Part shown: piece after piece, positions 30,516 through 60,481 of the stretch
Layout of the letters: the number at the start of each line of letters is the position of its first letter
How positions within the stretch are numbered: position 1 is the first letter of the stretch
Source of the DNA: Alistipes sp.
Lineage (GTDB): Bacteria > Bacteroidota > Bacteroidia > Bacteroidales > Rikenellaceae
Assembly: GCA_017555105.1 (NCBI GenBank)
Contig: JAFZHB010000004.1
Location: 33,790-97,789, forward strand
Reading direction: 5' to 3'
DNA length: 64,000 bases
Position numbers and translations under genes: made by a program
Notes under the pieces: model-generated
Database searches by the model: none
What the model was told of the DNA's origin: nothing
Seen by the model: only the letters and a program-made list of their open reading frames with translations

Positions 30516-32723
30516 TTAGATTGTAGGTTCGTACTGATAGATCCAATAGCTCTCACCCTCGATATACGAATCCGTATCGATCGTATACACAGTCTTGCCT
30601 ACCTTGTCATATTTAATCAGGCTATCAATGATCGCGCACAGATCCTCGAGTGCTGTGTGGACATCAATCAGATTGTATTTCTTGAAGAGATTTACGGTCT
30701 CATTTCTGTTGAGCACCGTCTTAAAGAGACTCCAAAGACGATTGTCGGCAGCGTCAATCATAAGCTGATTAAGTTTGTTGAATGCATCGTTCTGAGCCTC
30801 ACCAATTACTACACCGAGAGTAGTTGCAACCTGCTGATTCTGATTCTCGATATTCGTATTGATGTCTTCATTCTGCTGGATTTCTGCAACAATCTCAGCA
30901 AGTGTCTCCTTCATCGACGCAAGGAACTCTTCATTGTCGAATACCAGGCTGAGCAGTCTGTAAGTCAGTGACTCTTTGTTGTTTGCATTCTCCTGTAGGT
31001 ACTTAATAACATTGATATCCATTACATCAGCCAACAAACTGCTTCCGGTGAGCTGACCGAGATAATCCGATGCGGCAAAGAGACCCCATGTTAGGCTACC
31101 CAGATACTCCGAGTAATATGTAGTATAAATGGGAATAAACCCCAACTGGGTGCCTGTTTGCTTGCGAATACCTTCTAAATAGAGAGCCTTGAACGCTGTT
31201 TCAAAATCCTCATTCGAAAGATTCGGCTCATTTGCGAGGAAGTCCTGCGCTTTAGCGATATTGCTCTGACGCTTGCTCTCGAGATCTTCCGGTACGGTCA
31301 GAGCCTCCAACTTTGCCAATTCATCCTTAACGGACTGAACAGCCTTTGCGCGCTTTTGCTTGAATTTCTCCTCCTCGATCAATTCGTCACCGTCGCCAGA
31401 GGTGATGCCGAAAGACTCAACCCAATCACCAATGGTTCCAAACTCTTCAGCATACTTGTCCAAACCATTCTTGTTAATATAAGCCAAGAACTCGTCGACA
31501 TTCTGAATGGCATTTACCTCAGCAATTTTGTCGTTAACATAATCTACATAGTCGTAGATTACCTCGCGCTTAGCAACACCCGTAACCTCAAATGTTTTAG
31601 CCTCTTTTACAAAGCCGGGGATGCCACCCAAGATTTCATATACCTTCTTATACTCACCCAGCGACGAAGCAAGCATTACGCGCTCGATCAGCGTAACGAT
31701 GTCATCATCATGGTTTACCAGCCCTTTGATCCACTCTTCAACATTTACATCATTCAACGAAGGAATGATGCGCTCTGCGTGCGCATAAGCAGGAGCAATT
31801 GCCTTCAGCCAAAGATCAACCTCCTCCATGCCCTGAACCTCGAAGGTTCGCGCGCTGAACTGCAGGCTAACCGAGCGCTTGAAAGTATTCTCGGCGGTAA
31901 TCTCGGTCTTGAAATAGTTGCCAAACTGATCGTAGAAGGTGATCACCAGGTCGTTGGCCTCGTAGGTACCGGGAGCCAACACGAAGAAGAAGTTCGTAGC
32001 CTCCTCTGCGTTCAACTCAACACCATTCTCGCCGCAAGCCAACACGATCTTCTGTGCGCCCTCCTCGGCTATTGCTACCGTAGGAATCCACTCATCGGCA
32101 GCCACTGCCGTAGCAACCGTAGCACCGGCGATCTTGTGAGCCTTGCTCTCTAAGGTGGCGTAGTAAATCTTGCCCTCACCCTTCAGCGGCAATACCAAGC
32201 AGCTCGCCAGGTTCTTGAACGAGAAGTCGGGTGCATACTGCGAAACGGCCACCATCGGCGAGGCCTCCTGGCCGAATGAGTTCGGAGCAAAAATCTGCTG
32301 GGTGGGAATTGCCGTGTTTACAACGATGTCATCGCCACTCTGGGCAACCTTCGTCTCGGCAGAGAAGGGGTATACACCGATGAAGAGCGACTTGTTGACT
32401 CCGCTCTCAATGCTACCGGAGATGTTACCAAAGCAGGGGTTGTACTCAAAATCGGCCGTAACCGTACCCTCGCAACCCTCGCTCAGGTCATACTTGTAGT
32501 GTTTGCCTCTGTAGAGGAAGCTGATGGCATCGTTCTTCGACCATAAGGTCTTGTAGGCACCGTCAACGAAGCCCAACTCGGTACGACCCGTCGTCGACTC
32601 CAAACTGGCAGTTACAACGATCTGCTCTTCGGGCTGCACGGCCTCTGTCAGCTGCTCGTCTTTCTGGCACGAGGTCATCAAACCCAGTGCGAGAAAACCC
32701 AATAAATAATAAAATTTGTTCAT
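30516..32723 (-). CDS. large fimbrillin-like lipoprotein, phase-variable candidate
   Basis: 735 residues. The signal peptide ends in LMTSC (Cys19). Residues about 35-290 look like the fimbrillin-like N-terminal fold (TTGRTELGFVDGAYKTLWSKNDAISF). The rest is a long, mostly helical, charged region without a domain I recognise. The C-terminal part is more AT-rich than the N-terminal part, suggesting it was acquired separately. A 39-residue peptide gene lies 52 bases upstream on the same strand, then an invertible promoter segment and a tyrosine recombinase. The promoter element in that segment now points away, so the gene is predicted to be OFF in this orientation. Confidence 0.82.
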   Translation of the reverse strand: MNKFYYLLGFLALGLMTSCQKDEQLTEAVQPEEQIVVTASLESTTGRTELGFVDGAYKTLWSKNDAISFLYRGKHYKYDLSEGCEGTVTADFEYNPCFGNISGSIESGVNKSLFIGVYPFSAETKVAQSGDDIVVNTAIPTQQIFAPNSFGQEASPMVAVSQYAPDFSFKNLASCLVLPLKGEGKIYYATLESKAHKIAGATVATAVAADEWIPTVAIAEEGAQKIVLACGENGVELNAEEATNFFFVLAPGTYEANDLVITFYDQFGNYFKTEITAENTFKRSVSLQFSARTFEVQGMEEVDLWLKAIAPAYAHAERIIPSLNDVNVEEWIKGLVNHDDDIVTLIERVMLASSLGEYKKVYEILGGIPGFVKEAKTFEVTGVAKREVIYDYVDYVNDKIAEVNAIQNVDEFLAYINKNGLDKYAEEFGTIGDWVESFGITSGDGDELIEEEKFKQKRAKAVQSVKDELAKLEALTVPEDLESKRQSNIAKAQDFLANEPNLSNEDFETAFKALYLEGIRKQTGTQLGFIPIYTTYYSEYLGSLTWGLFAASDYLGQLTGSSLLADVMDINVIKYLQENANNKESLTYRLLSLVFDNEEFLASMKETLAEIVAEIQQNEDINTNIENQNQQVATTLGVVIGEAQNDAFNKLNQLMIDAADNRLWSLFKTVLNRNETVNLFKKYNLIDVHTALEDLCAIIDSLIKYDKVGKTVYTIDTDSYIEGESYWIYQYEPTI

Positions 32724-32775: not shown

Positions 32776-32895
32776 TTAACCTTGTCCACCCTCAAAGCCC
32801 CAGTCCTCGCCGGTTGCATTCGATGCAGCAAAGCCCTGCTCTACCGCCAACTCCAATACCTCGAGCTGCGGCGTCTCATAGATTTTCATTTCCAT
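32776..32895 (-). CDS. 39-residue EQGFAAS-type peptide
   Basis: Short gene encoding MEMKIYETPQLEVLELAVEQ followed by GFAASNATGEDWGFEGGQG. It aligns with the 42-residue peptide at 40210: both have YExPxLE, an acidic helix, then EQGFAA and a polar, Trp-containing tail. Both precede a fimbrillin-like lipoprotein gene on the same strand. No signal peptide or transmembrane segment is visible. A second in-frame ATG at 32889 is possible. Similar tiny genes are common in Bacteroidales, but I know of no assigned function. Likely co-transcribed with the lipoprotein. Confidence 0.75.
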   Translation of the reverse strand: MEMKIYETPQLEVLELAVEQGFAASNATGEDWGFEGGQG

Positions 32896-32966: not shown

Positions 32967-32982
32967 TTCTCTTTGTAAGAGA
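32967..32982 (+). repeat. left 16 bp inverted repeat of the invertible segment
   Basis: TTCTCTTTGTAAGAGA; exact reverse complement of 33153-33168. Flanking bases on either side do not match, so the repeat is sharply bounded. Confidence 0.9.
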
Positions 32983-33130
32983 TGGTATCTGCAAAATAAG
33001 AAGCAGGTATAGAGAGGTTTATAGAGTTGAATGTCTGCGATTTGTTCAACAAATTGGCATTGCAGAAGCGAGGTGGGCTATTAAATATGATTTCTTATGG
33101 TATAAATGTGTGCTTTTCAAAAAAAATATG

Positions 33131-33138
33131 TACCTTTG
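33131..33138 (+). promoter_or_regulatory. -7 promoter element inside the invertible segment
   Basis: TACCTTTG preceded by an A-rich tract; no clear -33 TTTG. Present orientation is rightward, away from the lipoprotein genes. Confidence 0.65.
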
Positions 33139-33152
33139 CACCAACAATCACC

Positions 33153-33168
33153 TCTCTTACAAAGAGAA
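33153..33168 (-). repeat. right 16 bp inverted repeat of the invertible segment
   Basis: TCTCTTACAAAGAGAA; exact reverse complement of 32967-32982, 21 bases before the recombinase stop codon. Confidence 0.9.
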
Positions 33169-33189: not shown

Positions 33190-34398
33190 CTATAACGATT
33201 TTAAGATGATGTGGTTCGCTCGGTCGATGGCCGTAGTGTCTAACGATGCCAGATAGATGCGAGTCGTGCGCTCTGAATCGTGGCCAAGCCCATCGCTGAT
33301 GACAGACAAAGGGACCTGCTTGCTCTTTGCGATGCTCGCCCAAGCGTGGCGAGCCACATAGAGCGTAAGCGGAATAGTGAGTCCGAGTTGGCGGCCGATG
33401 ATCTTCAGGCAGCGATTGATGTTGTGTGCCGTGTAGATATATTGTTTGCGCACATCGATGAGGCTGTGAGGCTTGATGATCGGAAGCAGGTAGTCGGAGT
33501 GCTCCGTGTTGTATTTCTCTACAATCTCTTGCATACATTGCTCCCACTTGATGATGAGGCGTTGTCCGGTTTTGCGACGGCGATAGGACAAGACTCTATG
33601 TCGTAGATCACTTTTGCGTAGATAAGCCATATCGACGAACGACATGCCGCGGGTGTAGAAACTGAACAGGAACATATCGCGTGCAAAGGAAAAGGTTGGA
33701 TTCGACGGAAAATCCAGCCCTTTGATTTGCTTGATGACTTTCAGCGGAATGGCTCGTTTGATCGTCTTCTCCACCCCTGTGTAGACATGTTTGAAGGGAA
33801 AGCGTTGCGGAATTAGCCCTTGCTCTACGGCGCGATTATAAACAGCCCGCAGGTTGCGCATATAAAACGAGGTGGTATTGGGGGTTAATCCTTGTTGCTG
33901 CAAATAGTTCTCGTAGGCCATCATCACCTCTCCATGGATGGCTTCAAGCGGCAGATCCTTGTTCGCTCGAAAGCGGCGGAAACTGCTGAGTGTAGTCGCA
34001 TAGTTCTCGGAGGTTCGTACTCGATTGATCGATTGGAGATGAGTGATCACACCCTCCATGAATGAGAAGAGGTAAATGCGAGGTCTCTCGACAAGAAAGG
34101 CAGCGATCACTTGATCTGCGGTGTACTCTTTATTATCTCGATCAAACCTGCAGATGATCTTGTGAAACACACTGAGGTCCACCTGAATATGTTCTATAAT
34201 TGTTAACAGATAACCTTGCCTCTCCTCGTTGTTTGTTGGGAGTACTACCTTAGCCGTGTGGGCATTCCATTCTTGAGCATAGAGGCGGTAGCCGGTCTTT
34301 TGTTGACGAGCGATGCGTTGGTGGATGATCTGATAGAAGAGGATACCCTGTTCGTTTGGTACGCTCGAAGGGCGAAACTTGATTTTTACGGTTGCCAT
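33190..34398 (-). CDS. tyrosine recombinase (DNA invertase candidate)
   Basis: Site-specific recombinase of the Bacteroidota tyrosine type, 402 residues. An N-terminal arm-binding domain (about 1-100) and a SAM-like core-binding domain (about 105-210) are followed by the catalytic domain. Visible catalytic residues are Arg250 (FYTRGMSF), Lys276 (RRKTGQ), Arg350 with His351 in YVARHAW (the usual first His is Tyr, as in many members of this family), His373 (GLGHDSERTT) and nucleophile Tyr382. Its 3' end is 21 bases from an inverted repeat, so I infer it flips the adjacent promoter segment. Confidence 0.92.
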   Translation of the reverse strand: MATVKIKFRPSSVPNEQGILFYQIIHQRIARQQKTGYRLYAQEWNAHTAKVVLPTNNEERQGYLLTIIEHIQVDLSVFHKIICRFDRDNKEYTADQVIAAFLVERPRIYLFSFMEGVITHLQSINRVRTSENYATTLSSFRRFRANKDLPLEAIHGEVMMAYENYLQQQGLTPNTTSFYMRNLRAVYNRAVEQGLIPQRFPFKHVYTGVEKTIKRAIPLKVIKQIKGLDFPSNPTFSFARDMFLFSFYTRGMSFVDMAYLRKSDLRHRVLSYRRRKTGQRLIIKWEQCMQEIVEKYNTEHSDYLLPIIKPHSLIDVRKQYIYTAHNINRCLKIIGRQLGLTIPLTLYVARHAWASIAKSKQVPLSVISDGLGHDSERTTRIYLASLDTTAIDRANHIILKSL

Positions 34399-40209: not shown

Positions 40210-40338
40210 ATGAAACAGACCCAAACGATGTACTACGAGGCGCCCATGTTGGAGCTCTTCGAGGTAAAGGCCGAGCAGGGCTTTGCAGCCACCGGCGACC
40301 CGAACGATTTCACCTATGCGGACGGGTGGGAGAACTAA
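40210..40338 (+). CDS. 42-residue EQGFAAT-type peptide
   Basis: Encodes MKQTQTMYYEAPMLELFEVK followed by AEQGFAATGDPNDFTYADGWEN. Shares YExPxLE(L/F)E...EQGFAA with the 39-residue peptide at 32776 and likewise lies just before a fimbrillin-like lipoprotein gene (21 bases). The frame extends upstream to 40123, but the promoter region lies there and homology starts at this ATG. No signal peptide or membrane segment. Function unknown. Confidence 0.78.
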   Translation: MKQTQTMYYEAPMLELFEVKAEQGFAATGDPNDFTYADGWEN

Positions 40339-40359: not shown

Positions 40360-41735
40360 ATGAAGAAGATGATGAAGATGAGCCTTGTGATGGCTCTTGC
40401 AGCCCTCCTTGCCGTGGGTTGCCAGAAAGATAGCACCCACACCCCCGAAGAGGGGCAGCTGACCACCGTTACGGCCACAATCAACAACGGCAACCTCGGC
40501 CGCGTGGCGTATGAGGACGACGGTAGCTCGGTATTGAAGGTTAATTGGAAGGATTCGGACGAGGCGTTTTGGGTACAGGGAGCTGGAGGCTACAAACGCT
40601 TCGATCAGGTAGCGGGTACTTCGACCTTTACGGGTGTGCTCGACGGTGGTTTTGATGGCACTTACTACGCGACATATCCGATAATATACTTGCACCCTGC
40701 ATCATTCTTGGTTACGATGGACTACACGCAGCAAAGCGGCGTATTGGACGAGCAATTTAACTATATGAGTGCTGTAAGTGACAACGGTACGCATTTCGAG
40801 TTCCGGCAGATGACCGCCATTATCAAGCCGACCTTCAAGGTGGCGGGTGAAAAGGTGAACAACCAAATCTCGGAGATCACGCTGTTGGATGTGACGGGTG
40901 CCAAGATCGGCGGCGCAACGGCGGATATCACGATCACCTGCGATCAGTTGGAGACGATCTACATCTACCTTCCTAACGGCCGTGCCTGGTTCAACAATCC
41001 GACCATCCTTGCCGCCGGCGAGTCGATTGCGTTGGAGGTAACGATTGGCGAGGAGCTCTACCTCGGCCGCATCACCGTACCCGAGGGTCGCGCCATCGAG
41101 ATGGGCAAGGTCTATCCGCTCGGCATCACGCTGACGAAGAGTGCGCCCGCGGCAACCATCGGCGAGGCGGTTGATCTTGGTTTGAGTGTAGCGTGGGCTA
41201 CCTACAATGTCGGTGCTACCGCTCCCGAGGAGTATGGCGATTACTTCAATTGGGGCGAGGTGGAGCCGCGGCCGGGGAAGAACGATTTCGCAACATTTTA
41301 CAAATACTCCGACGGGTTGATGGCAGCCGGCATTATCGATGCGAATTACAATTTGACTACCAATTACGACGCCGCTGCCACCAATTGGGGGGGGATTGGC
41401 GTATGCCTACTGCTAAAGAAATCGATGAACTGATTACTAAGTGTACCTGGGCGTTGAGTACGCTCAACAGCGTGGCCGGAATCACGGTTACCGGCCCCAA
41501 CGGCAACTCCATCTTCCTGCCGACTGCGGGCAGGTATAACAAGTTCGCCTCTCGTCCCGAATCTGGTGGTCAGTATGGCAATTATTGGAGTGGTACGGCG
41601 ATAGAGAACAACGACAGAGTCAATTCTCCGATACTCTATTATCAGCAGTCGGACGCCGTGCACTATACACATTATGCAGACCGTGCATGCGGTCTGCCGA
41701 TCCGTCCCGTTAAACCGAAACCTATTCGTGAGTAA
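40360..41735 (+). pseudogene. fimbrillin/FISUMP lipoprotein, frameshifted at a G8 tract
   Basis: The signal peptide ends in LLAVGC (Cys21). A fimbrillin-like domain (VAYEDDGSSVLKVNWKDSDEAFWV, about 40-270) and the start of a FISUMP-like domain (VDLGLSVAWATYNVGATAPEEYGDYFNWGEV) follow. At 41387-41394 eight G residues put the frame out: the first frame ends IGVCLLLKKSMN at 41433. The frame one base away continues with DWRMPTAKEIDEL through GLPIRPVKPKPIRE at 41735. With nine or six G the product would be whole (about 458 residues). Either a slippage-controlled ON/OFF gene, a true mutation or a sequencing error. Confidence 0.8.
41387..41394 (+). repeat. G8 homopolymer, possible slippage tract
   Basis: Eight G after CCAATT within the WGGDWRMPT codons of the lipoprotein gene, exactly where the frame breaks. 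Confidence 0.75.
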
Positions 41736-60305: not shown

Positions 60306-60451
60306 ATAAACACTAACGCCCACGAAAAATGGAGTTTTTAGGCATAATTCCGTTAAAACACAAAAAATCCCGAAAGTGGTTGATAAACTCTCGGGATTTT
60401 TTGTCTATTTTGTGTGATTTTCAGCCGATTTTCGTAGGCGTTAGTGTTTAT
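60306..60451. repeat. 23 bp inverted repeat enclosing a terminator-like hairpin
   Basis: Arms 60306-60328 and 60429-60451 (core ATAAACACTAACGCC...ACGAAAA, one mismatch). Inside, AAAATCCCGA... and ...TCGGGATTTTTT (about 60363-60402) form a strong stem with A- and T-runs. A further TTCGTGGGCGTTAG follows at 60451. Looks like the end of a mobile element or a structured RNA. Confidence 0.65.
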
Positions 60452-60481
60452 TCGTGGGCGTTAGAGTGCAAAAATTACTTC

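Follow-up and report, generated by a model that had tools for sequence, protein, structure and literature searches.

Tyrosine recombinases reportedly switch outer surface proteins of Bacteroides fragilis, as Weinacht is said to have described in 2004. At that switch a promoter inverts in front of surface protein genes, as is proposed here for a locus of Alistipes sp., which is likened to it by description.

Promoter inversion by a neighbouring tyrosine recombinase is already known in Bacteroides, according to the available parts of two papers (PMC4747536; PMC12632263), and the excerpt of one of them treats the B. fragilis surface-protein locus under type V pili (PMC12632263). Tsr19 (BF2766) of B. 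fragilis, as described in the accessible text, adjoins a local promoter, IVp-I (PMC4747536). Common to Tsr19 and the Alistipes locus is a recombinase gene beside an invertible promoter that lies between inverted repeats, its orientation setting expression of the genes beyond. Two differences stand out against the same portion of that paper: Tsr19 also inverts a distant promoter, IVp-II, whereas one site pair only was found in the Alistipes genome; and the cargo of Tsr19 consists of exopolysaccharide and outer-membrane protein genes, whereas here it is a peptide and a lipoprotein (PMC4747536). The Alistipes locus is likened to Tsr15 and Tsr19 by layout, not by sequence. A closer tie to Tsr19, through an mpi-like serine recombinase upstream, was set aside, none being recognised at 17 related loci with a crude motif and by eye. 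The Mpi-type class itself requires a serine recombinase, whereas the gene beside this segment encodes a tyrosine recombinase.

Inverton groups of Bacteroidota also combine promoter invertons with site-specific integrases nearby, and fimbrillin family genes are enriched downstream of groups 137, 112, and 122, as given in the available sections of PMC11892184. The Alistipes locus shares the promoter inverton and the nearby integrase with these groups by description; those sections print no repeat motif, and the available main text makes no mention of Alistipes. A literature search on invertible promoters in Alistipes returned no title on such a switch and found little in print.

The window, the whole stretch of 64,000 nucleotides analysed here, covers bases 33790-97789 of contig C1 in a draft genome of 1.77 Mb that is 86% complete. 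Over the recombinase DNA compared, four loci of the same genus (L007, L008, L035, and L012) are identical to records named Alistipes (L050, L054, L074, and L075), in line with that genus. Very probably the locus is a local phase-variation switch, in which the recombinase would invert a promoter segment and thereby set the peptide and lipoprotein genes ON or OFF. The locus is placed with the Tsr-type promoter inversions of Bacteroides, a known class of which this is a new example.

Layout of the segment, its promoter and the recombinase

Table 1. Positions of the features of the predicted switch within the window.
Feature	Position	Strand	Basis
Lipoprotein gene, 735 aa, second of the predicted switched pair	30516..32723	-	lipobox Cys19
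Peptide gene, 39 aa, first of the predicted switched pair	32776..32895	-	member of a family of 57 distinct peptides
Left recombination site (predicted; inverted repeat arm)	32967..32982	+	perfect 16-nt match to right arm; same arms in relatives
Segment predicted to invert, 170 nt	32983..33152	.	between the arms; homologous segments of relatives found reversed
Bacteroides-type -7 promoter element TACCTTTG	33131..33138	+	sequence; TAnnTTTG at the same arm distance in relatives
Right recombination site (predicted; inverted repeat arm)	33153..33168	-	perfect 16-nt match to left arm; same arms in relatives
Tyrosine recombinase gene, 402 aa, complete ORF	33190..34398	-	PF13102 and PF00589, over cut-off

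The features of the locus are collected in Table 1. The sequence-only reading had described a 202 bp segment bounded by perfect inverted repeats, each a dyad in itself, and a complete tyrosine recombinase gene ending 21 bases away; all of this is found. Each arm carries the dyad TCTCTT-TGT-AAGAGA, with its core at 32968-32982 on the left and 33153-33167 on the right; 21 bases separate the right arm from the recombinase stop codon and 71 bases the left arm from the peptide ATG. The arms are the sole perfect inverted pair of at least 16 nt within 700 bp in the 64-kb window, and the only other perfect pairs of at least 14 nt are two overlapping ones of 14-15 nt at 60306-60464. Among 400 trials with random 2-kb sequence matched to the local AT-rich composition, 1 produced a pair of at least 16 nt and 7 produced one of at least 14 nt. 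At 60306-60464 a terminator-like hairpin is enclosed by two inverted repeats, ATAAACACTAACGCC and CTAACGCCCACGAA, one nested in the other; no gene is evidently read there.

No exact copy of the arms was found elsewhere in the 86%-complete draft genome. Sites of the CTCTT-N3-AAGAG type form one pair only in this genome, accompanied by one lone site on contig C12, which was taken as a chance match: it has another centre, no partner in the genome, and G+C-rich surroundings. A 30-base piece of the segment gave no exact match in viral_contigs.

The -7 element sits 14 bases inside the right arm; an outward TAnnTTTG so near an arm is expected by chance in about 3.4% of random segments. As assembled, TACCTTTG is aimed at the recombinase and away from the peptide-lipoprotein pair, and after inversion it would stand 102 bases before the peptide ATG, in agreement with an earlier description that had it pointing away from the lipoprotein operon and, once flipped, at a 39-residue peptide gene about 100 bases away. 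That description had also called the element strong, which holds for the -7 part alone, because no clear -33 element accompanies it (only TGTG, 19-22 bases upstream of the -7, by eye). The -33 part is likewise not clear in the promoters of the recombinase family, of which 21 of 56 have a TTG at a distance of 18-22 bases upstream.

Five residues of the recombinase, R250, K276, R350, H373, and Y382, presumably the catalytic positions of a tyrosine recombinase, are each invariant in 96 of 96 aligned near-full-length homologues; inactivating changes, which had been named beforehand as evidence to look for against switching, are absent from all five. The tyrosine recombinase box is usually written HxxR; in this protein it reads YVAR. 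The closest solved structures are XerA and an XerC-like protein (E about 0.0003). Two other genes of the genome match PF13102 (L198 and L199), and neither has a promoter-type repeat pair beside it: L198 has one 16-nt pair, more than 1 kb from the gene, and L199 has none.

In the proposed mechanism the recombinase would bind both TCTCTT-N3-AAGAGA sites and invert the 170-base stretch that they enclose. The assembled state would be OFF for the operon, because the promoter is then directed at the 3' end of the recombinase gene, and a transcript, if any, would be antisense to the recombinase. Inversion would place the start of the mRNA near the left site, some 100 bases ahead of the peptide gene, and turn peptide and lipoprotein ON. 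A search of the minus strand between 32700 and 34500 found no terminator-like site, and recombinase and operon lie on the same strand, so that read-through could give some expression in the OFF state.

This copy is known in one orientation only, from one draft genome, and its promoter faces away from the operon; a former inverton that no longer flips in this species, its operon silent or expressed by read-through, would look the same. Such loss of switching is unlikely, since decay would be expected to follow it, whereas the two 16-base arms still match perfectly and the recombinase has kept its catalytic residues.

Recombination sites and segment orientation among relatives

The reading as a working switch gains from comparison with related loci. 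Recombinase homologues were matched at 110 loci, 106 after removing four duplicates, the window's own included, and 95 of the 106 have at least 400 bases downstream of the recombinase. When repeat pairs of at least 13 nt within 700 bases are counted, 65 of these 95 loci have one downstream of the recombinase and 2 of 95 have one upstream, where some loci offer less than 700 bases; the expectation from shuffled downstream sequence is 0.35. Thirty of the 95 have no such pair by this 13-nt test, a few of them carrying one that overlaps the stop codon. A looser cut (12 nt, 900 bases, stop-codon overlap allowed) yields a candidate segment in 70 of 106 loci, of which a few (e.g., L063) are probably due to chance.

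The 11 loci with less than 400 bases after the recombinase are L010, L012, L013, L021, L043, L072, L073, L080, L101, L105, and L115. Frequently the contig of such a locus stops at roughly the expected place of the segment, a kind of break that a mixture of orientations in the sample could produce.

The sites themselves are narrowly defined. A search for two CTCTT-N3-AAGAG sites separated by 100-450 bases, which tolerated no more than one mismatch over the ten arm bases and left N3 free, found a pair in 61 of 106 loci. The centre triplets are reverse complements in all 61 pairs and match only in the direct sense in none of the 61, with 27 different triplets as read at the recombinase side; because of kinship among many of the loci, the 61 pairs do not count as independent events. 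Across loci, fixed arms around a centre that is free between loci and common within a pair are what would be expected of a recombinase site with a crossover centre, and the sense of the centre match fits inversion, not deletion.

The same triplets bear on whether the repeats might be terminators or regulator-binding dyads, the recombinase being an ordinary element integrase that lies next to them by chance. Each arm could form a 6-bp hairpin, and two related loci, L037 and L038, adjoin genes that by eye resemble mobilisation genes; but the triplets differ between loci and match within each pair, segments are reversed between relatives, and no T-run follows the arms, which together leave this explanation the least probable of those considered, with next to no weight.

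Three more distant recombinases (L025, L026, and L027; 39-40% identity) have arms of another kind, GTTCTATCAAAGAAC or nearly so. The gene beyond the segment resembles the capsule regulator UpxY, by eye, in L025 and L027.

Comparison of the 70 candidate segments gave 41 locus pairs that match in the same sense and 18 that match reversed. Eight locus pairs were compared together with their flanks. In L071/L078 the flanks are collinear (88% and 89%), whereas from arm to arm the segment aligns in the reversed sense only (75%); L040/L046, of the clade nearest the window, give the same picture, with collinear flanks (77% and 82%) and a reversed segment (69%). The segment of L083 is reversed relative to L081, L092, and L103, and that of L068 relative to L078, in each case with a collinear recombinase flank, while the cargo sides match little or not at all. 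L018/L110 is ambiguous, a forward match crossing the segment too, and L078/L083 is collinear throughout, with the promoter directed away in both. Reversed segments show past inversion, not its rate, because the assemblies come from different species.

Of the 70 candidate segments, 42 have a -7 element directed only at the recombinase, 14 only away from it, and 2 both ways; 12 have none by the pattern used. The majority orientation, that of the window, where the promoter aims at the recombinase 21 bases away and no terminator-like site was found before 33694, makes antisense RNA possible; the promoter might even mainly target the recombinase, in which case this RNA would feed back on flipping and the operon would depend mostly on other means of expression. 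The 14 loci with promoters directed only away, together with the reversed segments, are however what a cargo ON/OFF switch predicts, and an antisense role is compatible with such a switch, not exclusive of it; as the main function of the promoter it is very unlikely.

Switching of the cargo, which the sequence-only reading had carried over from known systems, is therefore supported for the recombinase family by the 65 repeat pairs in 95 loci, the 61 matching centres in 61, and the reversed segments. Comparison with relatives, in which the module recurs, makes switching a well-supported reading of this locus; the window copy would flip, expression would follow its orientation, and the recombinase would act on this pair only.

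The peptide-lipoprotein pair

Genes that a flipped promoter could read stand beyond the left arm, the peptide gene first and the lipoprotein gene next. Within its own genome the peptide finds 11 matches at E up to 1. A profile search over the ORFs of loci L116-L195, all fetched for a matching peptide or lipoprotein, returned 57 distinct peptides of an unnamed family, 57 of 57 coming from loci picked for matching the pair. An ORF of at least 100 aa follows the peptide within 350 bases in 56 of the 57, and the following ORF has a lipobox-like start, by a lenient pattern, in 54. Thirteen aligned peptides share invariant M1, Y6, P9, E12, E19, G21, F22, and A23; the pattern, over about 40 aa, is Y..P..E......E.GFA.S, then a variable acidic tail, often with W at the end. 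The string VEQGFA does not occur in the literature searched, where no title has such an Alistipes peptide-lipoprotein operon as its subject.

The first 330 residues of the lipoprotein align with 19 others, Cys19 being invariant in all 20 N-terminal parts. Pfam, NCBIfam, and PDB profiles gave no match of note to the protein (the NCBIfam search covering it gave seven matches at E up to 1, all under cut-offs), and Pfam gave no family name for the 20 aligned N-terminal parts. A likeness to fimbrillins seen by eye is not claimed, as it lacks sequence profile support: unlike the type V pili context of the B. fragilis locus, the lipoprotein has no type V pilin/fimbrillin match in the sequence profile searches.

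Inversion appears to concern one copy of the pair. At least 400 bases are available upstream of 55 peptide genes, and a repeat pair of at least 13 nt occurs there in 4, only that of the window being switch-like; TAnnTTTG within 250 bases upstream is found in the sense orientation in 25 of 55 and in antisense in 11 of 55. The window holds a second peptide-lipoprotein pair on the plus strand (40210-40338 and 40360-41433; L184), with no repeats around a promoter. Its lipoprotein frame seems broken near 41433, and a similar reading continues in another frame at 41193-41735.

Cargo of related switches

Fifty loci were labelled, mostly by eye, by the genes beyond the segment; 45 of these are in the recombinase tree, five incomplete ones having been dropped, and the remaining loci of the 106 carry no cargo label. 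The window recombinase falls in a clade (100/99) whose eight other members all stand before DUF3575-like genes, so that the window looks like a switch of the DUF3575-type clade placed before another cargo. Three loci outside the tree are as near by identity: L037 has other genes beyond the segment, and in L038 and L044 a DUF3575-like gene comes further on, behind another ORF. Pfam, run on one locus of the DUF3575 group (L036), found DUF3575 and DUF6562; FimB/Mfa2 had been guessed as the second gene in the most closely related operons, a guess that was dropped, Pfam identifying DUF6562 in this one tested locus. In L037 and L038 the mobilisation-gene-like ORFs, of relaxase type by eye, lie upstream of the recombinase; some of these switches may therefore travel on mobile elements.

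A speculative view, doubtful as it stands, makes the peptide a functional partner of the lipoprotein instead of a leader only: peptides of about 40 aa, one before each of many paralogous lipoproteins, would form a multi-copy surface system of Alistipes, and one copy of this system would have acquired control by inversion, through a switch most closely related to those in front of DUF3575 genes.

The 18 loci labelled as defence are separated from the rest by a branch that has 77/83 support and appears in 72% of 200 bootstrap trees. Proteins from nine loci, nine in all, were run through PADLOC and hit models for HKD+Snf2 helicase-nuclease, restriction-modification (type ISP/IIG and type III), DndC, and BrxC, the hit in L009 being weak. 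The loci that combine a defence model with the recombinase-repeat module are L060, L066, L071, L079, L083, L086, L096, L104, and L009, and their recombinases group together.

A gut bacterium thus probably carries a promoter segment that a neighbouring enzyme can flip. For Alistipes this would be a phase switch with a sharply defined site, in which fixed CTCTT/AAGAG arms enclose a free 3-base centre matched within the pair; it also draws attention to an uncharacterised peptide-lipoprotein family, of which one switched copy could be studied by means of a locked promoter. Because members of the recombinase family precede surface, capsule, and defence genes, the site rule should be of use in finding more such switches.
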